Shown here piece after piece: positions 1-19,608 of a DNA stretch of 22,602 bases (position 1 is its first letter; each line of letters begins with the position of its first letter). This DNA comes from a virus. The position numbers and the translations under genes are program-made. Under the pieces are notes generated by a model that saw only the letters and a list, made by a program, of their open reading frames with translations, was not told where the DNA came from and did not search any database. The stretch lies in the IMG/VR virus record IMGVR_UViG_3300047173_000022, positions 1 through 22,602 of that record; one strand, given 5' to 3'.

Positions 1-164
1 GACCAGCGGGCATTAACACCTTATCATTTGTGTTTACAGACTCACCTGCCTCACAGTCTGATCTACCAAGCCGACCAGCGGGCATTAACACGCCTTCTCG
101 CGGTCGAAGGCGTAAGCAATCACTTGGTGTCTGATCTACCAAGCCGACCAGCGGGCACTATCAC
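1..164 (+). CRISPR. End of a CRISPR array (36-nt repeats, 2 spacers visible)
   Basis: A 36-nt unit starting GTCTGATCTACCAAG and ending GCGGGCATTAACAC occurs in full at 56-91. It recurs at 129-164 with two changes near its 3' end (CATTAACAC becomes CACTATCAC). Its last 19 bases are present at 1-19, cut by the window edge. The intervening sequences, 20-55 (36 nt) and 92-128 (37 nt), are unrelated to each other. Constant repeat length, near-constant unique spacers and a degenerate last repeat are the marks of the leader-distal end of a CRISPR array, so the leader and older-to-newer order should run off the left edge. From memory, the 3' end resembles the GGCATTAGCAC end of the Bacillus hisashii Cas12b repeat and the 5' GTC.GATC resembles the Alicyclobacillus Cas12b repeat, so type V-B is a guess. 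No cas gene or convincing anti-repeat is visible here. Confidence 0.85.
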
Positions 165-1311: not shown

Positions 1312-2889
1312 ATGTCGTTCTTAGATACTCAATGGAACGAAGAAGTAGACAAAGCCCTTCGTAATCCCCCCGGATGGAATTCGGATTTAATACAAGACAT
1401 CCACAGTTTATCGGGCGCTTCGCTTGTTGCCGCCATCAAGATTGGTAAAAGACTAGACTTTGACCTGCGTAGCAAAGGAATCCCTCTCACGGATGATGGC
1501 CTTTTTCGTGTTGGAGTTCCTTTCGAAGATGCATACACAGCAATGATGTGTGTCGAGTTAGTCATGCACGATCCCGGCTGTGAGGAGCGGACACTTTACC
1601 GGGACCGCCGACGCTACGGCACGCGCGAAGGTGAACAGGCAATAATCGATAAGATCGTGCAACTATTCGCAGCCGGGAAGTCTTACCGAAGGATCGCGGA
1701 AACACTCAATTTAGAAGGTTATTTACCGCGTAAGGGTAAGTGGACCCATTCCATGGTTAAGAATGTAATTGACGCAGGGCAGAATGTGACGCCCAGCCAT
1801 CCGTGCAAATGCCGGATGTACCGCACCGACTGGGAGAAGCCCTCCTCCCCGTCAGTCTGCATAGAAGTGTTACGCCTGAGCGACGACACCTTTGAGGCGA
1901 TGCGGACGAAAGGCGGCACCCACCGTGACACGACAGAAAACGACGTGCGGAGGTTTCGCCGGTCGCTTGCGGCTCAAGCGGATTACACTCCACCCCTGGT
2001 CGTCGATCACTCTAACATCCCTCACCTAAATCAAGTCGTCTTCGGCGATTGCCGTAAGAGGATCGAAGAATTGCCCGACAACTCCGTCTCCCTGGTTGTC
2101 ACGTCCCCGCCTTACGGGGAGCAAAGAAGCCAATACAAGGGAGCCACCGATGCCGATTACCCAGAGTTCACCCTTGAGTGGATGACGCCGATGAAGCAGG
2201 CGTTAAAGAACGACGGGTCGGTTATGATTATCATTCGCCCGCACGTGAAAGACGGCCAAGAAACTGATTACGTAGAGCGAACTATTACCGCCCTGAAGGG
2301 CGCGGGCTGGATACTCATTCAGCGTTCGATCTGGTACAAACCGGATGGCGGACCATTTGGCGCGGTGGATCGGCCACGTCGGAACTATGAGTATGTTTTG
2401 TGGTTTGCGAAAACTACGAAACCCTACGTCAATCTGACGGCTGACGGCAAAAACTCAGATCGCATCGGCATGTTAACCAAGAATCCGCAAGGCAACTTTC
2501 ACTCCACCGGTGGCGGTTTCGTCGATGGAATCGCGCGAGTAAGCGATGTTATTATCGCGCCTGTTTCCGGCTGTGACAAAGGCGTAAATCACCCCGCCAT
2601 GTGTCCGCCTGATTTAATACGCCAGTTGATACTTCCTTATGCGCCGGAGGGCGGGCTAGTCGTTGATCCTTTTGCCGGAGCTGGTACGACTTGTCTAGTA
2701 GCGCAGTCGCTAGGCCGCGACTCCATTGGCTTTGAGAACGGGTATGAGGAACTTGGAAAAGATCGGGATGGGAAGCCGATACACGGGGATTCATTCGCCG
2801 ACATCGCTAACCGACGCTTGGCAACTGAGGTGAAGTATAAAAGGGGAGCGGCGCTGGTGAAGACGATGGCGAAAGGCGTGGGCGCTTAA
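1312..2889 (+). CDS. DNA methyltransferase (beta class, TSPPY) with N-terminal recombinase-like HTH
   Basis: Predicted S-adenosylmethionine-dependent DNA amino-methyltransferase (N4-cytosine or N6-adenine), 525 residues. The C-terminal half carries the catalytic motif IV TSPPY at 264-268 ahead of the SAM-binding motif DPFAGAGTT at 452-460, with HPAMCPPDLIR at 427-437; this order defines the beta class. The N-terminal 240 residues are unusual. At about 107-154 a segment (IIDKIVQLFAAGKSYRRIAE, then GYLPRKGKW and VKNVI) looks like the helix-turn-helix of large serine recombinases or transposase linkers, and may supply target recognition. No restriction endonuclease is adjacent, so it looks like an orphan phage or mobile-element methylase protecting DNA from host restriction. 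The ATG has only a weak purine-rich AGAAGA upstream. Its stop overlaps the convergent gene by four bases. Target base and sequence cannot be read from here. Confidence 0.88.
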   Translation: MSFLDTQWNEEVDKALRNPPGWNSDLIQDIHSLSGASLVAAIKIGKRLDFDLRSKGIPLTDDGLFRVGVPFEDAYTAMMCVELVMHDPGCEERTLYRDRRRYGTREGEQAIIDKIVQLFAAGKSYRRIAETLNLEGYLPRKGKWTHSMVKNVIDAGQNVTPSHPCKCRMYRTDWEKPSSPSVCIEVLRLSDDTFEAMRTKGGTHRDTTENDVRRFRRSLAAQADYTPPLVVDHSNIPHLNQVVFGDCRKRIEELPDNSVSLVVTSPPYGEQRSQYKGATDADYPEFTLEWMTPMKQALKNDGSVMIIIRPHVKDGQETDYVERTITALKGAGWILIQRSIWYKPDGGPFGAVDRPRRNYEYVLWFAKTTKPYVNLTADGKNSDRIGMLTKNPQGNFHSTGGGFVDGIARVSDVIIAPVSGCDKGVNHPAMCPPDLIRQLILPYAPEGGLVVDPFAGAGTTCLVAQSLGRDSIGFENGYEELGKDRDGKPIHGDSFADIANRRLATEVKYKRGAALVKTMAKGVGA

Positions 2890-3914: not shown

Positions 3915-5081
3915 TCACTCAACAAGATCAGCGCCGCCCCATCCTTCAATGGCGTGCTGGAGCTCTTCGGGGGAAACTTCAGTTTCCGGCCAGAATCGAA
4001 TGCCGCAGCGGCGGCCCGTCAAATCTTCGCAATGCTTCAGGAGTTTAGCAAAGGTCACTTCCCCGCATTCGTCGTGGAAGCACTTAAACTGGACGCCACC
4101 ATCGGCATGAAGGATCAAGCAAGACTTACCCCGGCCAACGTTCATCTTGTTGTGCGACTCGCCACTAGCTGGACATGGATCGAAGCTGTACCATGTTTTG
4201 TCGCCGTCGTTCGTGACCCTCACCAAACTGAAAATCTCAGGGTAGAGTGCAATGAGTTGCTCAATCTTTCCTTCGGTCCCGAGTTGCTTCAAGGCGCTTT
4301 TACTGGGCGGCGGCGGCGCGACATAACCCCATGCTCTTGCCAATGCGGAATAATCGGCGGGCAGGTATTGCGGCGGATACTCGAACACTTGAGCGATGCG
4401 GCCACCCTTTAGATTTTTGAATCCAGGGAGCCTGCTGATGCGGTTGGCGTCGAAGACATTACGGTCGATTTTCGTTTTACCATCGTCAAATTTATCGGCA
4501 AGGTGGTGGAGAAAGAATACCAAACTCCGATTGGCGTTAGGCACACTGGTTGCACGGTTGGGAGTTCGATATACCAGGTACCAGCCGTTGCCGCTGAAGG
4601 CAACCACGGGCAAAGGAAAACCGCACGCACTGAGACAGTCGCGCACGTTGAGGGCGAAAAAGTAGGCTTCCCACGTTTGGGCGCGAGTTGCCGCCTCACT
4701 GGCGGGGCGAACCGGGTCGCAATCAATAAAGAGATTTGAGCGCATCTCAATATCACTGCCTTTTGTTGTCTCGAAGCTGCGCGGGCGCGCGGTATTCAAA
4801 GGGTGCGGCCAGGTCGCCGGGTGCTTAGGAGACTTTAACCCGTTCAGCGTGTGATAAACGTTGGCGTGTAACGTGGTACTCATTTTATGCGCGTAAATGG
4901 CGGCGAGATGAGGATCGGTGAATAAGCCGGAGGCGACAGACTTCCCGGTCAAACCACGAATCTCAAAAACATGATGAGGGTGAACGAAGCGCAGGAATTG
5001 CTCCGCATGCGCGACGTTGGAAAGCGGATCGTCGGTGAGCTTGACCGGCTCTAGGCTAGTTAAGGCGTTCTGTGTCGTCAT
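3915..5081 (-). CDS. AEP-type DNA primase with C-terminal zinc-binding region
   Basis: Predicted archaeo-eukaryotic-type primase (388 residues) that would make primers for phage DNA replication. Numbering from MTTQNALTSL, the catalytic pair is in FIDCD (118-122), followed by AFSGNGWYLVYR (161-172), the conserved glycine-rich strand, and DRNVFDANRISRLPG (206-220), typical of phage and plasmid RepB/prim-pol-like primases. The C-terminal region has cysteines in DPCP (301-304), a cysteine at 321 and FKCFHDEC (332-339), likely one zinc site. I place the start at 5081: an in-frame upstream ATG at 5186 would add 35 basic residues lying wholly inside the helicase gene. With the chosen start the gene overlaps the helicase gene by 26 bases, suggesting translational coupling. 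Many phages fuse primase and helicase; here they are separate. Confidence 0.82.
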   Translation of the reverse strand: MTTQNALTSLEPVKLTDDPLSNVAHAEQFLRFVHPHHVFEIRGLTGKSVASGLFTDPHLAAIYAHKMSTTLHANVYHTLNGLKSPKHPATWPHPLNTARPRSFETTKGSDIEMRSNLFIDCDPVRPASEAATRAQTWEAYFFALNVRDCLSACGFPLPVVAFSGNGWYLVYRTPNRATSVPNANRSLVFFLHHLADKFDDGKTKIDRNVFDANRISRLPGFKNLKGGRIAQVFEYPPQYLPADYSALARAWGYVAPPPPSKSALKQLGTEGKIEQLIALYPEIFSLVRVTNDGDKTWYSFDPCPASGESHNKMNVGRGKSCLILHADGGVQFKCFHDECGEVTFAKLLKHCEDLTGRRCGIRFWPETEVSPEELQHAIEGWGGADLVE

Positions 5082-6948
5082 TAGTGATTCCAAGGCGTTT
5101 CGCTTCTGCCTCCCACATGGGGTCGGCGAATACTTCCTCATCGGATGGTGGAGTCCTTTTAGCGGCGGGTTCAGACGATGGGACAAGGTGATCCCACTTA
5201 ATAGGGCGAGCCTTTTGAGTTGCGGCCATCTCCCGGTAGAGCGCTTGACAGTCGATCATCTCAGTGTCGGACGGGGCAAATTTGTATGTCGTTCCAGTGC
5301 GGTCGTGTTCGCGCGAATAACCGATCACCTTGAGCGATGAAATTTGCTTCGACAACGCCGTTCCAAAGGCGCTCACGGCTTTATAGGTAAATGGCTGGCC
5401 TAGCTCTTCAGACACGTTGCGCAACTCGCCAAAGAGCGTCGTAGAGCTGACTGCGCGGTTGGCGTTGGCTTTGCTTTTGCCCAACCAACATCTAACGGTG
5501 TGTACCAGCGGATTGGAGGAAGTGATCGTCTCGCCATACTTTTTCATGTACGCGGCCCAAAGGTTAACGGTGCTATCCAAGGTTCCCTCATATTCGCTCA
5601 CAACGAGTGTGAAGGCTTCATATTCAACCATTTCACTCTGATACGGGTAGACCTTTGCACCGTGTTGCAGATGAGCGCGGAGGATATTCTGACTGCGTAG
5701 GATGTACTCGGCGAGAAGCGCGGGACGCGCCTTTAGAACAGCGTTAAACAGCTTTTGCTTAGGGATCTTCTTCGGGGCGGCTGGTGCCACGTCCAATGTG
5801 AGGGTGCGCCGATGCACATCCGACCTGCTAAAGGGATTGACACGGCTGGTAAAGACTCCGTGATTGTGGATCACAAAGGTATCCTTCATGTTGGTTGTGA
5901 AAAGGCGGCGTAAATCGATCTCAGCACCGGTGGCGATATGACAAAGGCGATCTGAGTAAGATGCCAACTTGGGATCATCTAAGCCAAAGCTGTCGATGTT
6001 ATCGTAAACGACATACGACCTGTTCGTGATGGAGGCAATTAGTGCGTCTTCCTTCATCGGGAGCGCTTGCGCCAGGGAGGCTTCACCACGTAGGAATGTC
6101 AAGATCATTTCAGGGCCGCTGCTTTTCGTGCCGCCTGCTTCGCCCTTTAAGAGCGTCAAGGGCCACAACGGATATTTGCTGGCGGCCGGAATAAACAGGA
6201 ACCTGGTTAAGAACATCTGGTGATTTTGATCGTGGCTGAGAATATCATCGTGGCTCCAGCGAGTGGTTAGGAGTTGGGTCATTGGAAGATCAGGTAGTAG
6301 CTTGGTGCAGGCGGTGCCAACTTTAGGCTGCATCTCTTCAATCAAAGGCTTTAGCTCTGACAGCGGCGGCCATGCACCAATATCGTCGGCGATCAAGATC
6401 ACGCCATCGGTGCCGAGTGGGACCTCTGAGATGGAATCCGCCGTGATCTTAATCATGGTGGTACCACCCGCGTTCAGGTAAACAGCGTCATCGCTCATGT
6501 AGCTGAGATGATAAAGCTTGCGCTTGGGCGAGACTTCGGCGATCTGGCGTAGGTTGCTAGCTATTAGCTTCGTCGCTTTTTGAGTATCCAGCAGCCGGAT
6601 CAAACGCAGTAAATGCATGAATTCCGGGCCGGGGTCCTTACCCTCCAACCTGATTACCTTGTTGGTCGCGCGATCAAAAAGGTAAGGGTATGGACTGCGG
6701 AAGCATTCAGCACGGGCGGGGGTTTCACCTGCACGCGCTAAGAAGAATCTCCTAACCTCATCCCAAAGGCGTTGCTCCACTTCATGTGCCGCAAGCTTGA
6801 CGTACTCCACCTTCTCGTAACCATCACCATCTTCGGTGATTACCTCTTTGAAGCCGTGTCTGAGCCATGTGACTCTATCGGCAAAGCTCGCTAAACTCTC
6901 CGGTGGGCCGTCCGGCAAGGGGCATGGTCCTATGTTGATCTTCTTCAT
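5056..6948 (-). CDS. Phage replicative helicase, D5/AAA+ type
   Basis: A 630-residue ATPase of the phage D5-like helicase group. The Walker A region is KGEAGGTKSS (268-277), where the glycine before the lysine is replaced by threonine; related phage proteins have GEQGSAKST there. A Walker B-like YVVYDN (312-317) follows, then SDRLCHIATGAEIDLRRLFTT (332-352) and SDVHRRTLTL (375-384), whose paired arginines fit the arginine-finger/sensor region of this family. The N-terminal 250 residues lack an obvious primase motif; the primase is the next gene. The C-terminus (about 480-560) looks like a winged-helix segment. ATG at 6946-6948 has AAGGA upstream and starts seven bases after the preceding gene. 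It should unwind DNA at the phage origin in partnership with the primase. Confidence 0.8.
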   Translation of the reverse strand: MKKINIGPCPLPDGPPESLASFADRVTWLRHGFKEVITEDGDGYEKVEYVKLAAHEVEQRLWDEVRRFFLARAGETPARAECFRSPYPYLFDRATNKVIRLEGKDPGPEFMHLLRLIRLLDTQKATKLIASNLRQIAEVSPKRKLYHLSYMSDDAVYLNAGGTTMIKITADSISEVPLGTDGVILIADDIGAWPPLSELKPLIEEMQPKVGTACTKLLPDLPMTQLLTTRWSHDDILSHDQNHQMFLTRFLFIPAASKYPLWPLTLLKGEAGGTKSSGPEMILTFLRGEASLAQALPMKEDALIASITNRSYVVYDNIDSFGLDDPKLASYSDRLCHIATGAEIDLRRLFTTNMKDTFVIHNHGVFTSRVNPFSRSDVHRRTLTLDVAPAAPKKIPKQKLFNAVLKARPALLAEYILRSQNILRAHLQHGAKVYPYQSEMVEYEAFTLVVSEYEGTLDSTVNLWAAYMKKYGETITSSNPLVHTVRCWLGKSKANANRAVSSTTLFGELRNVSEELGQPFTYKAVSAFGTALSKQISSLKVIGYSREHDRTGTTYKFAPSDTEMIDCQALYREMAATQKARPIKWDHLVPSSEPAAKRTPPSDEEVFADPMWEAEAKRLGITNDDTERLN

Positions 6949-6955
6949 TTGATCC

Positions 6956-7333
6956 TTATTCTTTCCCGGCGATGCCGGGGGTTAACTTTCCCCGAAAGTC
7001 GGGGGCTGCGGAAAACAACACCGTGGCGTGTGTGATTGAAGTCGGGTGTTCAATGACGCGACGGCGCACAAGAGCAAAACTCAGCAGCCGTGTGACGGCG
7101 GCGTAAACGGTTTGATGACTGATAGGAAGTTGCCGCTCAATCTCCGGGACGGTGACCTCCGCATCGGCGGGGAGGTGGCACAGGTAGGTCAGGATAGCCT
7201 TGTGACTCCAGGCCAGACGTGAGTCGCGCAGAATATCCAGGAGGACTTCGGCCTCAAGCCGATGAGTTGGCGTGTTCGGCTGTGAGTTGGTAGTTTGACT
7301 TGTATTGGTTTGAGTAGTTGTTTGGATTGACAT
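6956..7333 (-). CDS. Winged-helix protein, first gene of the replication operon
   Basis: 125 residues from the ATG at 7331-7333, chosen because a strong AAGGAAAG sits just upstream; a longer in-frame reading from 7435 would have its ATG without such a site. Residues 5-23 are a threonine/glutamine/asparagine-rich disordered leader. About 36-96 form a winged helix: SRLAWSHKAILTYLCHL, then DAEVTVPEIERQLPISHQTV as the helix-turn-helix and RLLSFALVRRRVIEHP as the wing. This resembles the helix-turn-helix domains of phage replication initiators (DnaD or lambda O-like) and of phage regulators. Being the gene nearest the GTGACAGC repeats, it is the natural candidate to bind them, as initiator or autoregulator; that is inference. 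The helicase gene follows after seven bases. Confidence 0.7.
   Translation of the reverse strand: MSIQTTTQTNTSQTTNSQPNTPTHRLEAEVLLDILRDSRLAWSHKAILTYLCHLPADAEVTVPEIERQLPISHQTVYAAVTRLLSFALVRRRVIEHPTSITHATVLFSAAPDFRGKLTPGIAGKE
6965..7004 (-). promoter_or_regulatory. Cluster of short hairpins, two mutually exclusive, before the helicase start
   Basis: CCCGGC-GAT-GCCGGG (6965-6979) is a perfect 6-bp stem. ACTTTC-CCC-GAAAGT (6985-6999) and CCCCGA-AAG-TCGGGG (6990-7004) are both perfect 6-bp stems but overlap, so only one can form at a time. They lie in the last codons of the winged-helix gene, 17-56 bases before the helicase ATG on the leftward transcript, where they could affect helicase translation. 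Structure is seen; function is inferred. Confidence 0.4.
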
Positions 7334-7552
7334 AAATTCTTTCCTTTTGGCTAATACCGCACCGGCGACGGGAAAATCTGGTTTGTCGAAAATATACTTG
7401 AGGCGCGTGGTGATTCGATTTGCTGGCCCCAACATAGGAATTGATAGTTGGGAAATGCGGAACTATAAATAGTCTGCACCTAAACCGGGTGGCTGTCTTT
7501 ACAGATGAATCTGGAAATAAGGTAGGTGAAACCCTACCCGGTGAGGGGCCGC
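7334..7552. other. Leader of the leftward replication operon
   Basis: This stretch lies between the start of the first leftward gene and the repeat cluster. It holds the AAGGAAAG ribosome binding site of that gene and a rightward sigma70-like promoter. No leftward promoter with both good hexamers stands out; a TATATT-like box occurs on the minus strand at about 7390-7397. Frames in this stretch are not convincing genes. Confidence 0.4.
7441..7469 (+). promoter_or_regulatory. Sigma70-like promoter, rightward
   Basis: TTGATA (7441-7446) and TATAAA (7464-7469) are separated by exactly 17 bases, close to the TTGACA-17-TATAAT consensus. Transcription would run rightward through the repeat region towards the small gene at 7913 and the HNH gene, or act as an origin-priming or regulatory transcript. 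No leader gene follows directly. Confidence 0.55.
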
Positions 7553-7839
7553 GTGACAGCTCTTGTGACAGCTCTTGTGACAGCGCGAAATTAGAGCTTT
7601 GCCTGGGAGGGGCCCGCGTGACAGTGCTTAGCTTTCACAGTAAACGCTGTCACAACGGCCATCTCTGTGAAAACTAAACCAGTTGCACTGGCTGTGACAG
7701 TGTGACAACCCTTTTCTATATATTGAGAAAATGTTTCTTTTTACCCCCCATAACATGTGTATATATTTAATAGGGAGGGCTGTCACCTTGCACGTCGTCA
7801 CAACACCGTGCCAGCTACCCCGGCAATTTACCTGACAGC
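7553..7839. repeat. Iteron-like GTGACAGC repeats with AT-rich stretch: candidate origin or operator array
   Basis: GTGACAGC occurs three times in tandem with a 12-base period (7553, 7565, 7577; unit GTGACAGCTCTT). GTGACAG recurs at 7618 and 7694, with GTGACAA at 7702. The reverse complement GCTGTCAC is at 7646-7653 and 7779-7786, and CTGACAGC at 7832-7839. The copies at 7618 and 7647 form an inverted pair. A strongly AT-rich stretch (about 7710-7773, containing CTATATATTGAGAAAATG and TGTATATATTTAATAG) lies inside the cluster. Iterons plus an AT-rich unwinding zone directly upstream of a replication operon is the classic layout of a phage or plasmid origin; an operator for a regulator at the switch between leftward and rightward transcription is the alternative. 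Confidence 0.65.
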
Positions 7840-7891
7840 ACTGACAATCTCAACCAGACTGAAACGGAATCCTACGGTAATCTTCTACCGC

Positions 7892-7912
7892 CCGACTTCC
7901 GCTCCTTTTTAC
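7892..7912 (+). promoter_or_regulatory. Weak copy of the CGACTTT box before the small gene
   Basis: CCGACTTCCGCTCC followed by TTTTTAC abuts the ATG at 7913. It matches the first six bases of the recurring CGACTTT box, with 20 rather than 22 bases from C to ATG. No Shine-Dalgarno is present. Treated as a doubtful member of the set. Confidence 0.25.
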
Positions 7913-8161
7913 ATGGCAACCAACCCAACCTCAACCCCAACCACCGCAGCGGAAGCGCTCCTAGACGCCCTCGCCGACTTCTTTGTCGATTCGTTTAAGG
8001 CTCACATGATTAGGCGGCATCCGCACCTGGAAGCCGTATTTGATCCGCCGCCTCCACGTACAGCAAAACCCGGCTGCATCCTGCTCAGGGTGCCCAAGAT
8101 GACAACCGAGACAGTCCACACTGAGTCTTTCCTGGGACGTGAGTTCCCGACGCACAATTAG
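7913..8161 (+). CDS. Small protein of unknown function (82 aa)
   Basis: 82 residues starting MATNPTSTPTTAAEALLDAL, with a threonine/proline-rich head, an amphipathic helix (ALADFFVDSFKAHMIRRHPH) and a short PPPPRTAKPG turn before a strand-like ILLRVPKM. No family recognised. The frame stays open upstream to about 7757, but that part contains AT-rich and repeat elements and reads poorly as protein, so I start at 7913. There is no ribosome binding site; the ATG follows a CGACTT-type box. It is the first rightward gene after the repeat region. Confidence 0.5.
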   Translation: MATNPTSTPTTAAEALLDALADFFVDSFKAHMIRRHPHLEAVFDPPPPRTAKPGCILLRVPKMTTETVHTESFLGREFPTHN

Positions 8162-8454
8162 CCGCTCGCCCGGCACCCAACCGACTTCCGCACCCCTAAG
8201 CAGGTAGCGCGCCGGTTTTTTAACCTCTCCTTTCTCCCGGCGCGCGTTGGCAATTCGGGATTCGCGGCGGCGGGGCATGCCGCTGCGGTCCCGGCCAGCC
8301 TTACCGCTTCGTCAGCGACGACGACGCCGAACTCACAGAAGCGAACTATCAAACCTCTTAGTGCAGCAGTGCTCGCCATAGCTCTTGTTGCGTTCTCCTG
8401 TACGGGCCGCTTCACGGACATGCGGCGGCCCGTCTCTTTTATGCCGTCTAATTT
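8162..8454. other. Non-coding stretch with inverted repeats before the HNH gene
   Basis: No convincing gene. It holds CCGACTTCCGCACCCCTAAG at 8181-8200, a possible degenerate CGACTTT box. It also has an inverted repeat GCGCGCCGG (8207-8215) / CCGGCGCGC (8237-8245) around a T-rich loop, and the terminator-like hairpin at 8402-8440. Because an HNH nuclease and terminase genes follow, a cos site could lie here, but no cos sequence can be recognised by eye. Confidence 0.4.
8402..8440 (+). terminator. Terminator-like hairpin
   Basis: ACGGGCCGC (8402-8410) pairs perfectly with GCGGCCCGT (8425-8433) across a 14-base loop and is followed by CTCTTTT. The T-tract is short, so it is a plausible but not strong rho-independent terminator. 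It would separate early rightward transcription from the HNH gene. Confidence 0.5.
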
Positions 8455-8465
8455 ATGCCGTCTAA
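8438..8465 (+). repeat. Perfect 14-bp tandem duplication over the HNH start codon
   Basis: TTTATGCCGTCTAA occurs twice back to back (8438-8451 and 8452-8465). Each copy carries an ATG; because 14 is not a multiple of three, only the second (8455) is in frame with the HNH gene. A recent slippage duplication or a recognition site are both possible. Confidence 0.8.
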
Positions 8466-8796
8466 ACCCCTTACCGCGTGCGCCACGCCTGGTTGTGCCG
8501 CACTTGTGACGCAAGGCCATTGTGAAGCGCACAAAGGTAACAGCTACGACCGGCAACGCGGTACGACGGCTGAGCGCGGTTACGGCGGGCGCTGGCAACG
8601 GACGCGCGCCGTCTTCTTGTCTCGCGCAGAAAACAGCATGTGCCGCTTATGCCCAAACCACTTAGCAACAGACGTTCACCACACGAAGCCAGCGAAGCAG
8701 TTCCCGGAATTATTCTGGGATGAATCATTGTGGTTGCCTTGCTGCCATTCATGTCACTCGATGCTTACGCGGCAAGAGCGACTATCAGGCGCATAA
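8455..8796 (+). CDS. Phage HNH endonuclease
   Basis: A 113-residue HNH nuclease of the small type found beside terminases. An N-terminal CATPGCAALV...GHCEAH (9-26) suggests one zinc site. RGYGGRWQRTRAVFL (41-55) is the family's usual lead-in. C63/C66 (CRLC), VHHTKP (74-79) with the HH catalytic pair, and CHSCH (97-101) form the beta-beta-alpha metal HNH core. In HK97-like phages such HNH proteins act with terminase at cos sites to cut concatemers; here the ParB-like and Mom-like genes lie between it and the terminase. The ATG at 8455 has no Shine-Dalgarno and lies in the second copy of a 14-bp duplication. Confidence 0.85.
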   Translation: MPSKPLTACATPGCAALVTQGHCEAHKGNSYDRQRGTTAERGYGGRWQRTRAVFLSRAENSMCRLCPNHLATDVHHTKPAKQFPELFWDESLWLPCCHSCHSMLTRQERLSGA

Positions 8797-8927
8797 GTAG
8801 TGGTAACTGCCTTAGTAGGTCACGAATGAGCATGGAGTGGTATACCCCCTCTAGTAGTTTTTCAGCAGCGGTTTCCCTGATCGTTCGCGGTGCCAAACGT
8901 ATAAACGCGATTTGAACCTTAAGGGTA

Positions 8928-8950
8928 TCGACTTTCACCCGTCTAGTTAG
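8928..8950 (+). promoter_or_regulatory. CGACTTT box (copy 1) at the head of the ParB/Mom/terminase operon
   Basis: TCGACTTTCACCCGTC and TAGTTAG run directly into the ATG at 8951; C of CGACTTT to A of ATG is 22 bases. No Shine-Dalgarno lies in between. The same start and spacing recur at 16099, with related copies at 14627 and 19610. Likely a phage-specific promoter or start signal. Confidence 0.5.
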
Positions 8951-9457
8951 ATGAGCAGAATCAGCGATTTGGTACAGGACCCTAAGAATGCGAATCGCGG
9001 CACGAAGCGCGGCAACGAACTAGTTGAGGCTTCCCTTCGTGAGTATGGCGCGGGCCGGTCAATCTTGATCGACCGCAATGGAAAGATAATCGCGGGAAAC
9101 AAGACGGTTGCCAATGCTCAGGCCGCTGGCCTTGAAGACCTCATGGTTATCCAGTCGGACGGCTCCCGGCTGATAGCAGTGCAACGTACCGACCTTGATT
9201 TAGACGACGCGAAAGCCAAGGCGCTGGCCATTGCCGACAATCGGACGGCGGAGATCGGCTTAGAGTGGGACCCGGCGATCTTGGGCGAGCTTGCCAATGA
9301 GATGGATTTGAATCCATTCTTCAGCGACGAGGAACTCACAGAAATGGGCGCAACCCTTCCTGCGTTCCAACCCGGCGATGCCGCCGACCAACACCGACTC
9401 GACGAAAAGAATAAAGTAACCTGCCCTGCTTGCCAACATGTCTTTACCCCTTCTTAA
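8951..9457 (+). CDS. ParB/sulfiredoxin-fold protein with C-terminal CPAC motif
   Basis: 168 residues. The N-terminal two thirds matches the ParB N-terminal-like domain of phage proteins: DPKNANRGTKRG (10-21), GAGRSILIDRNGKIIAGNKT (34-52 region) and ALAIADNRTAEIGLEWD (about 92-108). In this superfamily, IIAGN-type glycine-rich turns bind nucleotides; some members are nucleases or CTP switches, others are fused to DNA methylases. The tail ends VTCPACQHVFTPS (C158, C161), a half zinc-knuckle. Its end overlaps the Mom-like gene by 20 bases, so the two are probably translated together and act in one pathway, perhaps DNA modification. It has no DNA-partition partner (ParA), arguing against plasmid segregation. 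Starts right after a CGACTTT box without a ribosome binding site. Confidence 0.82.
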   Translation: MSRISDLVQDPKNANRGTKRGNELVEASLREYGAGRSILIDRNGKIIAGNKTVANAQAAGLEDLMVIQSDGSRLIAVQRTDLDLDDAKAKALAIADNRTAEIGLEWDPAILGELANEMDLNPFFSDEELTEMGATLPAFQPGDAADQHRLDEKNKVTCPACQHVFTPS

Positions 9458-10133
9458 ACTTGACTGGGCGACCCATGAAGCCGCTAAGTTCGCTGTGGAG
9501 CACTGGCACTATTCAAAACAGATGCCAGTTGGTAAGTGCGTAAAGGTAGGCGTCTGGGAAGCCGGCGCGTTCATCGGCGTCGTGACTTTCAACCAAGGTG
9601 CTAATCGCAACATCGGATCGCCCTACGGTTTGGGTTTGACTGAGGCGTGCGAACTTACCAGAGTCGCCCTTACAAAGCACGTTACTCCTGTGTCACGCAT
9701 TGTCGCCATTGCGATCCGATTTCTAACCAAGCAATCCCCCGGGCTGAAACTAATTGTGTCTTACGCTGACCCCGGCCACGGTCACCACGGTGGCATTTAT
9801 CAGGCTGGCAATTGGGTTTACGTTGGGTTCGGCTGCGCAACTAGGCACCTCCTTATCGACGGCTCCCCCATGCATAATAGGATGGCTTTCGACCTGTTCG
9901 GGTCATCAAGCGCGAATGTTGTGCGGGCACAGACCAAGGTTGAAGTAATACGCCTGCCACCGTCGCCCAAACACACATACCTGATGCCACTCGACCCAAC
10001 TATCAGGACCTTTTGTGAGGCACTAAGAAAGCCATACCCTAAGCGGGTGAAGCAGGCGATGCCTGGGGACCACTCAGACAGCGGCGGCGCGACACCGACC
10101 CACCCGCTCCAAAACACCGGAGAGACAGCATGA
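9438..10133 (+). CDS. mom: Mom-like DNA modification protein (adenine hypermodification)
   Basis: 231 residues, the length of phage Mu Mom, which converts adenine in phage DNA to an N6-carbamoylmethyl form and so blocks host restriction. Family-typical blocks, matched from memory: HWHYSKQMPVGKCVKVGVWE (22-41), FIGVVTFNQGANRN, EACELTRVALTKHVTPVSRI, SPGLKLIVSYADPGHGHHGG, then IYQAGNWVYVGFG. These correspond to the GNAT-like (acetyltransferase-type) fold proposed for Mom. The C-terminus KHTYLMPLDP...LRKPYPKR is also seen in relatives. In Mu the regulator gene com overlaps mom; here a ParB-like gene with a CxxC tail overlaps it by 20 bases, and the end overlaps terS by ATGA. Chemistry in this phage is inferred. 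Confidence 0.82.
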   Translation: MSLPLLKLDWATHEAAKFAVEHWHYSKQMPVGKCVKVGVWEAGAFIGVVTFNQGANRNIGSPYGLGLTEACELTRVALTKHVTPVSRIVAIAIRFLTKQSPGLKLIVSYADPGHGHHGGIYQAGNWVYVGFGCATRHLLIDGSPMHNRMAFDLFGSSSANVVRAQTKVEVIRLPPSPKHTYLMPLDPTIRTFCEALRKPYPKRVKQAMPGDHSDSGGATPTHPLQNTGETA

Positions 10134-10633
10134 GCGTAGGCAGAAGGCCGAAGCCAACCGCGCTGAAGCGCGCAGCCGGAAATGTCGGCCACCGCCCACT
10201 TAACGACAAAGAGCCGAAGCCTACGGGCACGCCTACCTGCCCCAAACATTTAGATAAGGCCGCAAAGGCTGAATGGAAACGCATATCCAAAGAACTAACA
10301 AGCCTTGGTTTACTCACATCCGTTGATCGCGCGGCACTGGCTGCCTACTGCCAAGCCTGGAGCCGATTCATTACCGCAGAGGAAGGGATTGCCCGTTTCG
10401 GTTTGGTCATAAAGTCCCCGAAGAGCGGCTTCCCCATACAAAACCCTTTCGTTAGCATTTCCAACACCGCGCTGGACCTTATGCGGAAGTTTGCAGTTGA
10501 ATTCGGCCTCAGTCCCGCCTCACGCTCCCGCTTAACAACCGGCACGGCTGAACCCACCGATGCGTTCGCGGAATTCATGCAGACCTTGGGCGCAGATGAG
10601 GAAGTAGGTGTTGCCGTTGACCCAACCCAATAA
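10130..10633 (+). CDS. terS: Terminase small subunit, P27 family
   Basis: 167 residues. The opening GRRPKPTALKRAAGNVGHRP (4-23), then a PTCPKHLDKAAKAEWKRIS block, and the helical core SLGLLTSVDRAALAAYCQAW are typical of P27-type small terminase subunits, which bind packaging sites and recruit the large subunit. The middle GFPIQNPFVSISNTALDLMRKFAVEFGLSPASRSRL is the conserved C-terminal part. The start overlaps the Mom-like stop as ATGA and the end overlaps terL by 26 bases, so the modification and packaging genes form one tightly coupled unit. Confidence 0.9.
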   Translation: MSVGRRPKPTALKRAAGNVGHRPLNDKEPKPTGTPTCPKHLDKAAKAEWKRISKELTSLGLLTSVDRAALAAYCQAWSRFITAEEGIARFGLVIKSPKSGFPIQNPFVSISNTALDLMRKFAVEFGLSPASRSRLTTGTAEPTDAFAEFMQTLGADEEVGVAVDPTQ

Positions 10634-12284
10634 GGCCCTCACTTACATAGCCGACGTTTTAGCGGGCCGTGTTGTCACCTCCAAGCTTGTCAAGCTTGCC
10701 ATAGAACGCCACGAGCGGGACCTACTCAACGGCCATGAACGCGGCCTAACCTTCAATCCAAAGAAGGCTCAGCACATTGTCACGTTTATTGAGAGCTTCT
10801 GTAAACATAGCGTCGGTGCCTGGGCCGGTAAGCCTTTCAAGCTTGAACCGTGGCAGTGGGCGCTTTTGTGGATTCTATACGGCTGGACCTTCACTGAGAC
10901 TGGATATCGACGTTTCAAGTTCGCCTATGTGGAATTAGGACGCGGTAACGGTAAGTCGGCGCTGGCGTCCTGTGTCGCTCTCTATGAGCTTCTGGGATCT
11001 GGTGAACCGGGCGCGGAATGCTTTTCGATTGCCACTAAGAAAGATCAGGCGCGTATCGTCTTCGCTGAAGCTGAGCGCATGGTTAAGCAGTCACCATCTC
11101 TAAAGAAGCGGGTCAAGAACTATCGGGATTCGCTGTTCATTCCAGACACGGCAAGTAAGTTTACGCCGCTATCGTCGGATGAGGATTCCCTGGACGGCCT
11201 TCGGCCACAGTGCATTATTGCAGATGAACTTCATGCTTGGTCCACCACAGGTAGAAAGCTGTGGGATGTACTCGTAAGTGCTCTTGGCAAGCGTAGGAGT
11301 CCGCTCTTCTTCGCCATCACCACCGCTGGCAGTGATCGTAATTCGGTGTGTTGGCAACAGCGCGATTATTGCGAAAAGGTACTGAGCGGCGTCTTTGAGG
11401 ACGACCGCTGGTTTGCCTGGATCTGCGGATTATCGGCGGACGAAGACTGGGAAGACGAGCGCAATTGGATCAAGGCAAATCCAAATCTAGGAATCTCAGT
11501 TAGTCTGTCCGATCTACAGGACGCGGTACGGAAAGCAAAGAACGACCCCGCTTCACTTAACGGCGTGCTCCGGCTCCGGCTTGGTATCTGGACCCAATCC
11601 CACACGGCATGGCTACCGATGGATAAGTGGGACGCCTGCGCCGGGGAAGTGGACCGTGAAGCCCTCAAAGGCCGCTCCTGCTATGCAGGCTTGGACTTGA
11701 GCACGTCAATAGACATCTCAGCTTTCGTGATGTTGTTCCCCCCACATGGCGACGACAAGTATTGGCGAATACTGTGTGAGTTCTTCCTGCCAGCCGACAA
11801 CATCGAAGCGCGGGTTAAACGGGACCGCGTTCCTTATGACGTTTGGAACCGGCAAGGACTCTTCAATTTGACGGAAGGCAATGTTATCGACTACGACGTT
11901 ATCCGCAACCGCATCAAGTCACTTGGTCAGGACTACGACATTAAAGAAATTGCCTTTGACCGTTGGGGCGCTCAACAAATCGTTACTCAGTTGACCGCTG
12001 ATGGTTTCACAATGGTTCAGTTCGGTCAAGGCTTCGCTTCGATGGGCGCTCCGACGAAGCGGCTCATGGAACTCGTGCTGTCCGGTGAGTTGGCCCATGG
12101 CGGTAACCCGGTACTTCGATGGATGGCTGGCAACGTCATGGTTGAGATAGACCCGGCAGGGAACATCAAGCCTTCAAAGAGCAAGAGCCGGGAGAAGATT
12201 GACGGCGTCGTCAGTTTGGTCATGGCGCTGGCGAGGGCGTCGGCCCACGCGGAGAGTCAAGGCTTTGCGCCTACAGTGTGGTAA
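10608..12284 (+). CDS. terL: Terminase large subunit
   Basis: 558 residues, packaging motor ATPase plus nuclease that moves DNA into the prohead. Walker A is GRGNGKS (111-117), preceded by FAYVEL; Walker B is QCIIADE (201-207); the ITTAGSDRN motif (237-245) is the coupling/motif III region. The nuclease domain has acidic residues in YAGLDLSTSIDISAF (359-373), AFDRWGAQQI (449-458) and EKIDGVVSLVMA (529-540). Length and motifs fit the HK97-like (Terminase_1) group that pairs with P27 small subunits. The start is taken as GTG at 10608; TTG at 10611 is equally well placed behind GAGGAAG and would change only one residue. Confidence 0.95.
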   Translation: MLPLTQPNKALTYIADVLAGRVVTSKLVKLAIERHERDLLNGHERGLTFNPKKAQHIVTFIESFCKHSVGAWAGKPFKLEPWQWALLWILYGWTFTETGYRRFKFAYVELGRGNGKSALASCVALYELLGSGEPGAECFSIATKKDQARIVFAEAERMVKQSPSLKKRVKNYRDSLFIPDTASKFTPLSSDEDSLDGLRPQCIIADELHAWSTTGRKLWDVLVSALGKRRSPLFFAITTAGSDRNSVCWQQRDYCEKVLSGVFEDDRWFAWICGLSADEDWEDERNWIKANPNLGISVSLSDLQDAVRKAKNDPASLNGVLRLRLGIWTQSHTAWLPMDKWDACAGEVDREALKGRSCYAGLDLSTSIDISAFVMLFPPHGDDKYWRILCEFFLPADNIEARVKRDRVPYDVWNRQGLFNLTEGNVIDYDVIRNRIKSLGQDYDIKEIAFDRWGAQQIVTQLTADGFTMVQFGQGFASMGAPTKRLMELVLSGELAHGGNPVLRWMAGNVMVEIDPAGNIKPSKSKSREKIDGVVSLVMALARASAHAESQGFAPTVW

Positions 12285-12307
12285 CCAACTTCCCAATCAC
12301 TTCATGA

Positions 12308-14020
12308 ATGGGCTTCTTCCAAAATGTAATCAATCGCTTCTCACCCGAAACACGCGGCAACCCAGCGGAGAACCCTTCCGTATCGCTTTCCTCGCCCGCC
12401 GTATGGTCTTGGATCACCGGCTCAGAACCAACCGCCAGCGGTGAGTTGATCGATGAACGCAAAGCTTTACAAATTTCCACGGTTTACGTTTGTGTCCGTA
12501 TCATCGCCGAAACCATCGCAAGTCTCCCGGCCAAGGTATTTGAGACTCTTCCCGCTGGCCGCCGCGAAGCTGTTGACGCTGATCTTTACGACCTTCTTAC
12601 CCTGAACCCCAACCCTGAGATGACGGCCTTCTCCTTCTTTGAGACGTTATCGGGTTCACTCTGTCTGACCGGCAACTGCTACGCCCAGATCCAGCGCGTA
12701 GGTGGCAAGGTGGTAGCACTGTGGCCCCTTCACCCGCTGATGACTCACCCAATCCGCAAGCCCGGTGGTGTGCTGGCATACAGCACAACGGACGGCATGC
12801 AGGCCGGTCAGACGCGCGTTATCGATGCCGCCGACTGTATAGCGATTCCGCTCTTCAGTTTCGACGGCGTGCTTGGCTTGAGCCCAATCGGGATGGCGCG
12901 GCAAATGTTAGGTCTAGCAGTGGCCACGACGAAGTACGGGGCGCGCTTCTTTGGCAACGGCTCGAAGCCGGGTGGCCTGCTATCAACCTCCAGCAACCTC
13001 AACGACGTTCAGTTATCCGCTATCAAGGAATCTTGGCAGGCAGCGCAGGGCGGCGTCAATCAGGGCAAGACGGCGGTATTGCATGGCGACTGGAAGTACA
13101 GTCAGATCGGCATCAGCCCCGAAGATAGCCAATTTTTAGCCACAAAAGCCTTCTCGCGCACCGAAATATCAGCCTTATTTCAGGTACCCAGTCACCTCGT
13201 GGGCGACACTTCGCGGCTGTCAAATGCGAACCACGAGCAGCAACAGCTTCAGTTTTTGACCGGCTGTATTCGCCCTTACTTAGTGAGGATGGAGCAAGAG
13301 CTAAAACGTAAGTTACTCCCTGCCCTTGGCCGAAATGCTGGCCGCTATCACATTCAGTTTGATACGCGGGAACTAACTCGCGGTGACTTCGCTAGCCAGA
13401 TGACAGCCTACGCAACCGGGCGCACCAACGGCTTCCTTAACGCCAATGATATCAGGCAATCGTTGGGGGATAACCCGATACCGGGCCTTGCTGGTTCAAC
13501 TTACTGGATGCCTGTAAACATGCAGGATGCGAACTTCCCGAACCAGGGCGGCGGCACAGAGAAGCCCGGTGACGCCACGGACGATGACCCTGAAGACACC
13601 GACCCACTGGCAGGCGACGACAGCGGCGACGACACAGCCGACCCACTTACCGACGATCAACGCTCACTACCGGCAGCCACCGCGTTCCTCAAGCTTTTTA
13701 GGGATGGAATGGGACGCCTTCTCAGTCGGGACAAGCGCGATTATGAAGCTATTAGCCATATATTCACCCCGTTGGTGGAGACTTTAGCCACCCTTGCGGA
13801 AGCCAAATACGGCGAGTTAGCAGCCGATGTTAGAAGCAAAATCACCAAAGAAGCCCTCAAAGGTTTGGAAAAACGGTCGGCGGCGTGGTTACTTGAGACG
13901 GCTGACCAGTTCGCGGACGCGGAACTACTGAAGGTAACTCGCGCAGTGGTCATCAACATCGCCAAAGAAGCAGCGGCGAAGAAGGCGCTAAAGGAAATAC
14001 CCGGAGGATCAAATGAGTAA
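12308..14020 (+). CDS. Portal protein, HK97 family, with long C-terminal extension
   Basis: 570 residues. The first 405 or so match the HK97-type portal: ALQISTVYVCVRIIAETIAS near the start, GNCYAQIQRVGGKVVALWPL, then FFGNGSKPGGLL, FQVPSHLVGD, and EQQQLQFLTGCIRPYLVRME, ending NDIRQSLGDNPIPGL. The portal forms the dodecameric DNA entry ring at one capsid vertex. Family members usually end near 400-430 residues. Here an acidic linker (about 415-452, DDDPEDTDPLAGDDSGDD) joins a further 115-residue helical domain (453-570) rich in Ala/Lys/Glu of unknown role, perhaps a scaffold or capsid-assembly contact. ATG 12308 lacks a Shine-Dalgarno; another ATG at 12304 is out of frame. Confidence 0.92.
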   Translation: MGFFQNVINRFSPETRGNPAENPSVSLSSPAVWSWITGSEPTASGELIDERKALQISTVYVCVRIIAETIASLPAKVFETLPAGRREAVDADLYDLLTLNPNPEMTAFSFFETLSGSLCLTGNCYAQIQRVGGKVVALWPLHPLMTHPIRKPGGVLAYSTTDGMQAGQTRVIDAADCIAIPLFSFDGVLGLSPIGMARQMLGLAVATTKYGARFFGNGSKPGGLLSTSSNLNDVQLSAIKESWQAAQGGVNQGKTAVLHGDWKYSQIGISPEDSQFLATKAFSRTEISALFQVPSHLVGDTSRLSNANHEQQQLQFLTGCIRPYLVRMEQELKRKLLPALGRNAGRYHIQFDTRELTRGDFASQMTAYATGRTNGFLNANDIRQSLGDNPIPGLAGSTYWMPVNMQDANFPNQGGGTEKPGDATDDDPEDTDPLAGDDSGDDTADPLTDDQRSLPAATAFLKLFRDGMGRLLSRDKRDYEAISHIFTPLVETLATLAEAKYGELAADVRSKITKEALKGLEKRSAAWLLETADQFADAELLKVTRAVVINIAKEAAAKKALKEIPGGSNE

Positions 14021-14624
14021 CAAGAAAGAAGTCCGCTTTATAAGCGAGAAGACGCTGGAGGTTCGCGCAGCCGGTGACGGTAAGCGCACCATGAGCGGGA
14101 TAGCGGCGCGGTACAACGTCCGTTCCCTCGACTTAGGTGGCTTCACGGAAGTACTTGCTCCCGGCGCGTTCACTCGCACGCTGGCAGACCCCGCGTCTGA
14201 TGTTTGCTGTCTCTACGGTCACAACATGAGTAACGGCTTGCTTGGCCGCACCACATCCGGCACCTTACGGCTTCGTTCCAACGATGACGGTTTGGTTTTT
14301 GACTGCGACTTGCCAAGTACCACTCTAGGCAACGATACCGCCGAAAGCATTTCACGCGGCGACGTAACCGGTATGAGCTTTGGCTTCATGGTGCGTGATG
14401 ACGATTGGGTAACCGCAAGCGACGGCACCACGGTAAGAACGATCAAAGACCTTGACCTTATGGAAATCAGCGCGGTTCCGTTCCCGGCCTACCCGTCCAC
14501 AAGCGTGCAAATGCGTTCACTGTTGTTCCCCCAAGGTTTGCCGGAGGTGCCGATGGTTCAAGTTCCCGACACTATCGAAACCGACAAGCTTCTGGCCGCC
14601 ATTCTAGACCGGCGTTCCAGATAA
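14013..14624 (+). CDS. Prohead protease, HK97 type
   Basis: 203 residues. Serine protease (assemblin-like fold) that cleaves the capsid protein's N-terminal delta domain during head maturation. SGIAARYNVRSLDLGGFTEVLAPGAF is split here as SGIAARYNVR and GGFTEVLAPGAF (28-53), with the catalytic histidine in YGHNMSNGLLGR (H70) and the serine in TGMSFGF (S122). DLMEISAVPFPAYPSTSVQ (148-166 region) completes the family signature. GGAGG is placed six bases before the ATG. The first eight bases overlap the end of the portal gene, so the two are coupled. Confidence 0.94.
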   Translation: MSNKKEVRFISEKTLEVRAAGDGKRTMSGIAARYNVRSLDLGGFTEVLAPGAFTRTLADPASDVCCLYGHNMSNGLLGRTTSGTLRLRSNDDGLVFDCDLPSTTLGNDTAESISRGDVTGMSFGFMVRDDDWVTASDGTTVRTIKDLDLMEISAVPFPAYPSTSVQMRSLLFPQGLPEVPMVQVPDTIETDKLLAAILDRRSR

Positions 14625-14625
14625 C

Positions 14626-14648
14626 TCGACTTTCAAACCCTTAGTTGA
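14626..14648 (+). promoter_or_regulatory. CGACTTT box (copy 2) ahead of the major capsid gene
   Basis: TCGACTTTCAAACCCTTAG starts two bases after the protease stop and is followed by TTGAAA. It is the closest relative of the copy at 19609. A separate promoter for the capsid gene would fit its need for high expression. Transcription start and factor are unknown. Confidence 0.5.
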
Positions 14649-14717
14649 AACTGTTCTGACTCAGCATTCCTTGTGATGCCGCGTTAACTCGCGATCTGGG
14701 GTAGAGCAAACAGGAAG

Positions 14718-14738
14718 TTATCCGCCTGAAGCGGATGA
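14718..14738 (+). promoter_or_regulatory. Hairpin in the capsid gene leader
   Basis: TTATCCGC (14718-14725) and GCGGATGA (14731-14738) pair as an 8-bp stem with one G-T pair around a CTGAA loop, about 30 bases before the capsid ATG. It could stabilise the leader of an abundant mRNA. Confidence 0.35.
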
Positions 14739-14768
14739 CGGCCCTAATTCAATTCGTAGGTGAGTCAC

Positions 14769-16022
14769 ATGACTTTAGAAGAAATCAAAACAAAGCGGAC
14801 GAAGTTACTTCGTGACGCTCAGGCCGTTCTCTTAGGAGAAGGCGTTGACGGTGAAAAGCGTGCCAAGGCACAGCTTATGATTACCGACGCGGACGGCTGT
14901 GAAGCCGACATCGCTTCTTTGGAGCGCATCGCCAAGTTTGAATCAGAGGAACGGGCACGCACGACTCCGCCCCGCCCGCAACCAAACGGCGGTATGCCTT
15001 CCACGGAAGAAACTGCCGAACAGCGCACCGCCAAACAGAAGGAAGCATTCTCGAACTACATCCGCTTCGGTCGGGTTAGCGAAGAGAACCGCAGTCATTT
15101 GACCGCTGGCAGCTTAGCGGGAGCCAATCTCCCGGCTGAACTTCGCGATCTAACCACCGGTGTCGGTGGCGTAGGTTCTGTAGGTTACTGGATACCCCAG
15201 GGCTTCTATCCGTCCCTAGTTGAGGCGGAAAAAAGCGTGGGTCAGATCATCAGCCTGATAAACGTACAGAAGGTCAGCGATGGTTCGCCAACGAAGGTCG
15301 GCCTTGTCGATGATACCGCCAACAGCCTTACCGTTCTCGGCGAAACCGTGGCGGTTTCCGAAGTCGATCCGACCACAAGTGGCAAGATCGTCACGCCAGA
15401 CATGTTGACGACCGGCGCTGTAAAGGTGTCGATCCAGAGTTTGCAGGATTCATATTTCTCCGTCGATGAGTTCCTGAAGAACGCCTTCGGCGTTCGCTAC
15501 TACCGTGGGCTTTCCAACTTGGTCACCAATGGTAGCTCCAGCGGCAACATTCAGAGCATCCTTACCGGCGCTCATAACGTGGATACGACCACCGGCCCCG
15601 GCGTCGTTGGTTACTCGGACATTGTAAATCTATTTGCAAGTCTCGATCCTGCGTATTTGGGTAACTCCACTTTTGTAATGAACAGCACGACACGCGGCTA
15701 CCTTTTGGGTGTCACCGATACCCTTGGTCGGCCTCTGTTTATTACCAGTCCGAACAGCGGCGCGTTTGACACGTTGCTTGGTCGGCCCGTCGTTCTCAAT
15801 CAGTCCATGCCAAACATCGGAGCCGGTAACACGGCCATACAGTTTGGTGACTTCAAAGCCGGATATTTGTTGCGCCAAGTGGGGGACCTTACCGTCCTTC
15901 GTTTGTCTGAGCGCTACATGGATCAACTCGAAGTGGGTTTTATCGGCTACGTTAGAGCGGGTGGTGTTTCACTCGACATGACGAACGCTCACCCCATCGT
16001 CAATTCGATAGGTCACGCATAA
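14769..16022 (+). CDS. Major capsid protein, HK97 fold
   Basis: 417 residues. Residues 1-110 are a charged, helical delta/scaffold region (EEIKTKRTKLLRDAQ...RARTTPPRPQP) removed by the prohead protease in HK97-type phages. The mature shell domain follows: DLTTGVGGVGSVGYWIPQGF (the N-arm start), then SVDEFLKNAFGVRYYRGLSNLVTNG in the spine helix, TFVMNSTTRGYLLGVTD and GRPVVLNQSMPNIGAGNTAIQFGDF in the P/A domains, and VGFIGYVRAGGVSLD at the end. I start at ATG 14769 because TAGGTGAG is well placed before it; a GTG three codons upstream (14760) lies within that site. A strong terminator follows directly, so this gene has its own expression unit. Confidence 0.94.
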   Translation: MTLEEIKTKRTKLLRDAQAVLLGEGVDGEKRAKAQLMITDADGCEADIASLERIAKFESEERARTTPPRPQPNGGMPSTEETAEQRTAKQKEAFSNYIRFGRVSEENRSHLTAGSLAGANLPAELRDLTTGVGGVGSVGYWIPQGFYPSLVEAEKSVGQIISLINVQKVSDGSPTKVGLVDDTANSLTVLGETVAVSEVDPTTSGKIVTPDMLTTGAVKVSIQSLQDSYFSVDEFLKNAFGVRYYRGLSNLVTNGSSSGNIQSILTGAHNVDTTTGPGVVGYSDIVNLFASLDPAYLGNSTFVMNSTTRGYLLGVTDTLGRPLFITSPNSGAFDTLLGRPVVLNQSMPNIGAGNTAIQFGDFKAGYLLRQVGDLTVLRLSERYMDQLEVGFIGYVRAGGVSLDMTNAHPIVNSIGHA

Positions 16023-16049
16023 AAAGCCGCCCACGGCGGTAACAACCAA

Positions 16050-16094
16050 AAGAAGCCGGACCTTCTACCGAAGGAATCCGGCTTCTTCGTTTTG
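16050..16094 (+). terminator. Rho-independent terminator after the capsid gene
   Basis: AAGAAGCCGGA (16050-16060) pairs perfectly with TCCGGCTTCTT (16077-16087); the intervening CCTTC-TAC-CGAAGG-type sequence extends the stem. CGTTTTG follows. It lies 28 bases past the capsid stop. Confidence 0.82.
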
Positions 16095-16097
16095 ATT

Positions 16098-16120
16098 CCG
16101 ACTTTACAAACCCTTGTTAG
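16098..16120 (+). promoter_or_regulatory. CGACTTT box (copy 3), directly after the terminator
   Basis: CCGACTTTACAAACCC then TTGTTAG runs into the ATG at 16121, 22 bases from C to A exactly as at 8929. It begins four bases after the terminator's T-tract, where a new promoter would be expected. No Shine-Dalgarno is present before the ATG. Confidence 0.55.
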
Positions 16121-16336
16121 ATGCAAATACGAATCGTCAAATCCTTCGTCTCTTCCGGCTTCGCCCCTTTCTGTCCTGGGGAAGTTATCCGCGACGTCCC
16201 GGCTGATCTGGCCAAAACCTGGATCGCCATTGGAGTCGCCAAGCTCATTGAGCCTGAGCCTTCTGAAGCAGAGGCTCCGCCACCAGTCAAAGAAACCGCC
16301 ACCCGCAAAACCCGTACCGAAACAAGAGGCTCCTAA
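16121..16336 (+). CDS. Small protein between capsid and connector genes (71 aa)
   Basis: 71 residues, MQIRIVKSFVSSG at the start with FCPGEVIRDVPADLAKTWIAIGVAKLIEP, then a proline/glutamate and lysine/arginine-rich tail. The compact first half (an RIV strand, a PGE.. turn and a helix ending ..GVAK) is a pattern I associate with small head-region proteins lying between capsid and connector genes in HK97-like phages; no function is established from sequence. It opens the transcription unit that follows the terminator and is four bases from the next start. Confidence 0.65.
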   Translation: MQIRIVKSFVSSGFAPFCPGEVIRDVPADLAKTWIAIGVAKLIEPEPSEAEAPPPVKETATRKTRTETRGS

Positions 16337-16339
16337 TCG

Positions 16340-17026
16340 ATGTCGGTACAACTCCGCCTAATTACAGGACCGATCATTGAGCCCGTGGTACTCACCGACG
16401 CCAAGGCGTTCCTCGTTTTGGACCCTGGCTTCACTCAAGACGATGGCCTGATTACCGCGCTTATCGTTGCGGCGCGCCAGTACGCGGAGAATTATTGCAA
16501 CCGGTCTTTTTACAACCAAACGTGGCAGCTAACCAAAGACTGGTTTCCCTTCTTCATCGGTGACTCAACGCTCCCGGCCACCGGCCAAGGTGAAGGCTAT
16601 TGGACTTGGTCATACTACTGGAACGGCGTCATGTTCCGCGTCCCCAAACCAAGCTTGGTGAGCGTCACGTCAATTACTTACTTGGATACGACCGGCACCG
16701 TGCAGACTGTCAATCCTGCAAGCTACTTTGCCGACACCCACAGCGAGCCTGGCCGCATCGTTCCGGCTGCCGGGTCCTTCTGGCCGTGGGCGGCTAGCTA
16801 TTTCCCTGGCGGCGTCCAGATCATTTACGTTTCAGGCACCTATGGCGACGGCGCGGAGGTAGACACTTGCCCCGAAACCATCAGAGTCGCAATCAAGCTC
16901 TTAGTCGGCCACTGGTACAGCAACCGCGAAGCTTCGAGCGCTTATAGCTTGACATCGATCCCGATGGGGGTCAGCGCTTTGCTTGACTCTGTGAAGTTTA
17001 CCTATTGGTCTTGGGGAAACAACTAA
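16340..17026 (+). CDS. Head-tail connector, gp6-like
   Basis: 228 residues. VVLTDAKAFLVLDPGFTQDDGLITALIVAARQYAENYCNRSF is the classic start of the gp6/YqbG-like head-tail connector fold (positions 16-57, quoted in parts: LTDAKAFLVL, DDGLITALIVAARQYAE). The C-terminal CPETIRVAIKLLVGHWYSNRE completes the helical bundle. It would sit under the portal as the adaptor ring. A central insertion rich in Trp/Tyr/Gly (FPFFIG...GEGYWTWSYYWNGVM) is longer than usual. GAGG lies about 12 bases upstream of the ATG. The next gene starts at the base after its stop. Confidence 0.84.
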   Translation: MSVQLRLITGPIIEPVVLTDAKAFLVLDPGFTQDDGLITALIVAARQYAENYCNRSFYNQTWQLTKDWFPFFIGDSTLPATGQGEGYWTWSYYWNGVMFRVPKPSLVSVTSITYLDTTGTVQTVNPASYFADTHSEPGRIVPAAGSFWPWAASYFPGGVQIIYVSGTYGDGAEVDTCPETIRVAIKLLVGHWYSNREASSAYSLTSIPMGVSALLDSVKFTYWSWGNN

Positions 17027-17398
17027 ATGATTGATCCCCTTTATCTGGCAGCCGGGAAGCTGCGCCATACGGTGTCTGTTCAACAACTGAACCGAATCGG
17101 TGATAGTCAGTGGACAGCGACAGACGCCACCGTAGCAACTGCCGGGTGGACGACGCTGTATACCACTCGCGCTTCGATTGAATCGCTGGGCGGCCTGAAC
17201 TTCAAGGAAGTCTACGCGGACACGGACTTGTCTTCTGTCAGCACACATCTGATAACGATGCGCTGGAATCCCAGCTTTACGATTAACGCGGGAAATCAAG
17301 TTGTGTCGGCAACGAAGACATTTAGAGTCCAGCTCAGCCGGAATGTCGATGAGCGTAACAAGGTGTGGAAGCTCCTGTGTGTGGAGGTGCCAGCCTAA
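17027..17398 (+). CDS. Head-tail joining (head closure) protein
   Basis: 123 residues. GKLRHTVSVQQLNRIGDSQW (10-29), WTTLYTTRASIESLGG and HLITMRWNPSFTINAGNQV correspond to the beta-barrel head closure/joining proteins (SPP1 gp16-like, Phage_H_T_join family) that seal the connector after packaging. It begins directly after the gp6-like stop and its TAA shares an A with the next ATG. GGGGAAACAAC upstream may serve as ribosome binding site. Small, soluble, no membrane segment. Confidence 0.84.
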   Translation: MIDPLYLAAGKLRHTVSVQQLNRIGDSQWTATDATVATAGWTTLYTTRASIESLGGLNFKEVYADTDLSSVSTHLITMRWNPSFTINAGNQVVSATKTFRVQLSRNVDERNKVWKLLCVEVPA

Positions 17399-18563: not shown

Positions 18564-18620
18564 ACAACCATCAGATAAATCCCGGTTCGTGAAGGCGTGC
18601 CACACGGGTATTAGCTTCAT

Positions 18621-19607: not shown

Positions 19608-19608
19608 T

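Follow-up and report, generated by a model that had tools for sequence, protein, structure and literature searches.

Does a CRISPR array that lies beside the genes of a tailed phage belong to that phage, and which type of CRISPR system would it serve? The window analysed here, a complete IMG/VR virus record of 22,602 bases (IMGVR_UViG_3300047173_000022) that is classed as 'linear', starts inside such an array. At its left edge, on the plus strand, are the last 19 nt of a repeat (positions 1–19), the rest of which is cut off by the contig edge. This is followed by spacer 1 (36 nt, 20–55), a full 36-nt copy of the repeat, GTCTGATCTACCAAGCCGACCAGCGGGCATTAACAC (56–91), spacer 2 (37 nt, 92–128) and a degenerate terminal repeat (129–164), in which two changes turn GGCATTAACAC into GGCACTATCAC. 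The terminal copy is identical to the full repeat at 34 of 36 positions and the partial copy at 19 of 19, whereas 200 shuffled versions of the first 1500 bases gave at most 25/36 for the self-match of 36-nt windows placed 60–85 nt apart. The two spacers, though similar in length, are unrelated to each other (12 matches at best). One open frame of 63 codons runs across positions 1–192; a protein-coding tandem repeat was rejected, as copies 2 and 3 lie in different frames and the spacers are unlike each other. Bases 1–164 are a genuine CRISPR array, with a repeat pattern far beyond chance. Both the layout that the sequence-only reading had described, namely three copies of a 36-nt repeat, one cut by the edge and the last one degenerate, with spacers 36 and 37 nt long, and its identification as CRISPR thus hold on the coordinates and the shuffles, the regular repeats and unrelated spacers exceeding the shuffled expectation.

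A degenerate repeat usually marks the leader-distal end of an array. From this rule, we infer that the window holds the leader-distal, and hence old, end of the array, so that its leader would be expected beyond the left edge of the contig.

Next, we focused on the sequence that follows the array. A stretch of 303 bases (165–467) contains no recognised gene, repeat or RNA family: an Rfam search of bases 1–1400 found no family, and no further repeat copies were found in the stretch itself. It ends at an ORF on the minus strand (468–1040), in agreement with the distance of about 300 bases from the array to the first phage-like gene that had been read from the sequence. This ORF encodes a DUF3102-like protein of 190 aa. 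Its own Pfam match is not significant, but over 151 residues it aligns at 34% identity with a DUF3102 protein from Azospirillum ramasamyi. The gene for that protein comes after an AAA ATPase gene, and the region also holds an integrase gene and a Gam-family gene. A weaker relative, in Roseomonas, is flanked by ParA and RepA genes. As these relatives occupy plasmid and prophage neighbourhoods, the ORF is probably a mobile-element gene, and genes of this type would then begin some 300 bases from the array.

The genes beyond it are those of a tailed phage. At its N terminus, a DNA methyltransferase (N6_N4_Mtase; 1312–2889, plus strand) resembles the DNA-binding 'Recombinase' domain (PF07508) found in large serine recombinases. 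This gene was rejected as an integrase, since the catalytic recombinase domain was not found; on its domain matches, it may be a fusion of a methylase with a DNA-binding module of recombinase type. Two overlapping ORFs on the minus strand follow, one of them weakly RepB-primase-like (3915–5186) and the other 5056–6948, both lacking good family matches; the pair (3915–6948) probably functions in phage replication. The phage body proper (8455–22,602, plus strand) encodes an HNH endonuclease, ParB-like and Mom-like proteins, the small and large terminase subunits, portal, protease, major capsid protein, connectors and tail proteins, and ends in a long ORF that runs off the right edge and is probably the tape measure gene. 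Within this body, the ParB-like protein is directly followed by the Mom-like DNA modification protein (8951–10,133), adjoining the terminase genes, and such a pair is likewise annotated in Enterococcus phage phiEf11. A homing-endonuclease-like gene (group I intron endonuclease type, with a trace of NUMOD3) is located between the neck and major tail genes (18,621–19,607).

We infer from this arrangement that a tailed phage (or phage-plasmid) carries the array in its genome, beside its replication region, a reading that we favour at about even chances. The virus record begins within the array, the first gene after it is of mobile-element type, and methyltransferase, replication-like, packaging, head and tail genes follow in turn. 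No host gene was recognised in the record, and no integrase was found among its proteins searched. However, only 164 bases of the array are visible, and they lie at a contig edge, where misjoins or flanking host sequence are likely to occur.

Hosts have arrays more often than phages, where they are rare, and this general expectation favours a different origin. The array could be that of a host chromosome (or plasmid), with its trailer end beside a prophage and the contig spanning the junction. Such adjacency of prophage and array requires no new biology, and it agrees with the position of the array at the edge of a record classed as linear. The short-word make-up of the array also differs somewhat from that of the phage body: only 4% of 303-nt pieces of the contig are further from the mean in trinucleotide composition, although 164 bases are too short for this to be weighed, whether for a host origin or against a phage one. 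That no integrase was found among the proteins searched, and no host gene recognised, speaks against a host array, yet a prophage with no integrase in the 22 kb that follow the array is possible if the integrase lies at its other end. The phage end that faces the array bears no integration module but genes of replication type. If this were a prophage, its attachment site would have to fall within the 303 bases of 165–467, a coincidence that a phage-borne array does not need. We regard a host array as a lesser, though still serious, possibility.

An assembly chimera, in which an array fragment of one organism was joined to the phage of another, would also place these elements side by side. Assemblers often break or misjoin within repeats, and the contig does start within one. 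However, 303 bases of unremarkable unique sequence separate the end of the array from the phage genes, and the GC content is fairly even (0.54, 0.58 and 0.52). A chimera seems unlikely.

To investigate who owns the array, we searched for its spacers, its repeat and relatives of the phage. The sequence-only reading had pointed to phage databases as a source of spacer targets, but neither spacer matched a phage, which weakens the phage-borne reading. Spacer 1 had no match in the window, in phages, in plasmids or in IMG/VR (one wobble-degenerate pattern). Spacer 2 had none in phages or IMG/VR (one wobble pattern, in one reading frame), and plasmids gave only partial matches at chance level; the rest of the window and the related virus records matched neither spacer. 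The exact repeat and its degenerate form (GTCTGATC-17N-GGCATTARCAC) had no match in IMG/VR. These searches of viral collections may omit records very near the window. The degenerate form was likewise absent from 399 and 396 genomes of two phyla, those of Prevotella and Lachnospiraceae metagenome-assembled genomes (MAGs). This absence from 795 genomes counts against a host array but says little, as the host may belong to another phylum. Single matches in Prevotella and Lachnospiraceae MAGs fit a 37-nt pattern (18 N) and are not relatives of the repeat.

Relatives of the phage identified by terminase, at up to 62% identity, have packaging and head genes in common with the window. None of them carries an array, which counts against the phage-borne reading. 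Their left-hand, array-side genes are not shared either, and for this reason these relatives do not decide who owns the array. A search of IMG/VR for relatives of two array-side genes (468–1040 and 5056–6948) found none. One related virus record (G504) contains long tandem repeats with a period of 12 bases (L043, 907–1683; L042, 19,163–19,558).

Arrays in viruses have precedents. In a landfill survey, 0.43% of viral elements carried arrays, some of them far from any cas gene (PMC12607003), and it is established that array-bearing viruses can exploit the Cas proteins of their hosts, as shown for the mini-arrays of archaeal viruses (PMC11656645). Like the arrays and mini-arrays of phages and archaeal viruses (PMC11656645, PMC12607003; Medvedeva et al. 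2019, cited there), the array described here is a short stretch amid virus genes, and no cas gene is visible. Unlike those, it is truncated at the contig edge, which puts its full length and any cas neighbours out of view. As a rule, the repeats of mini-arrays equal those of the host. These precedents support a phage-borne array.

The ends of the repeat had suggested type V-B (Cas12b) in the sequence-only reading. As a reference for this type we used Alicyclobacillus Cas12b, verified to be identical to the chain of PDB entry 5wqe. A V-B locus was located on a plasmid of Alicyclobacillus dauci (NZ_CP104065.1, L036), where cas12b and cas2 lie beside an array with the repeat GTCGGATCGTTGAGCGAGCGATCTGAGAAGTGGCAC. 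In this plasmid, cas12b is annotated as two overlapping pieces (6001–9365), which may reflect a frameshift or a sequencing error, and a five-repeat array is found downstream of it. The window repeat and the A. dauci repeat share a length of 36 nt, a 5' GTCxGATC, a 3' CAC and a unit spacing of about 70–73. The 3' end also agrees with that of the Bacillus Cas12b repeat. Over their whole length, the window repeat is identical to the A. dauci repeat at 16/36 positions without gaps and to the Bacillus repeat at 17/36, though between these two V-B repeats only 15/36 positions agree. Taken together, the two ends match the A. dauci repeat at 13 of 19 positions (shuffle p about 6e-5), and the second comparison, with the Bacillus repeat, gave p 4e-5; in both comparisons the ends were picked once the resemblance had been noticed, which lessens their weight.

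The resemblance to V-B repeats did not stand out in a typing control, in which the whole repeat was globally aligned with 15 further repeats. Repeats of type VI-A and of E. coli type I-E reached shuffle p values of 0.0015 and 0.0025, and thus scored as well as the A. dauci repeat (0.0020). On these alignments, repeat typing by global alignment is not specific. The repeats also differ in predicted structure: the strong hairpin of the A. dauci repeat (-13.4 kcal/mol) has no counterpart in the window repeat, whose folding energy (-5.1) is no better than those of shuffles.

Unlike the A. dauci locus, with its long repeat hairpin, the record shows neither cas12b nor a tracrRNA anti-repeat. The anti-repeat, which had been proposed as a check on the type, was sought within the window only, where nothing exceeded chance matches of 9–10 nt; such a tracrRNA would normally lie beyond the contig edge. 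A search of the record and of eight related virus records, for which the A. dauci plasmid served as positive control, gave no Cas12b, and neither did the phage collection at the sensitivity used. At the same limit, a conserved-motif scan of IMG/VR gave no true match, as its sole candidate (L035) was rejected as a tape-measure-like gene. In 300 and 198 of the genomes from the phyla of Prevotella and Lachnospiraceae, the Cas12b family NF033949 gave only weak fragment matches far under the cut-off. Of the proposed V-B likeness, the shared ends GTCxGATC and CAC therefore stand, whereas the subtype is not singled out, given the equal alignment of VI-A and I-E repeats, the absent hairpin and a record that contains no Cas12b. 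A type V-like repeat is possible. A phage-borne array of type V-B, which would be a special case of the phage-borne reading, is improbable, even though a Cas12b2-like gene has been reported on a jumbo phage (PMC12607003). Slimmer still is the prospect of a mid-sized tailed phage whose V-B-kind array feeds guides to a Cas12b of the host or of the phage itself.

If the array is borne by the phage, as we favour, the rest of it would lie beyond the contig edge. Its transcripts would most likely be processed into guides and loaded onto Cas proteins encoded elsewhere, either by the part of the phage genome that the contig lacks or by its host, and these guides may direct attack on competing phages or plasmids. 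An array end of 164 bases at a contig edge cannot carry the claim of phage ownership, nor that of type V-B. If the former is correct, this would be one more phage that uses CRISPR guides against its rivals. If the array were also of type V-B, it would extend this subtype to phages of ordinary size, and guides supplied to a Cas12b of host or phage would make it a rare example of a phage armed with V-B RNA-guided weapons.
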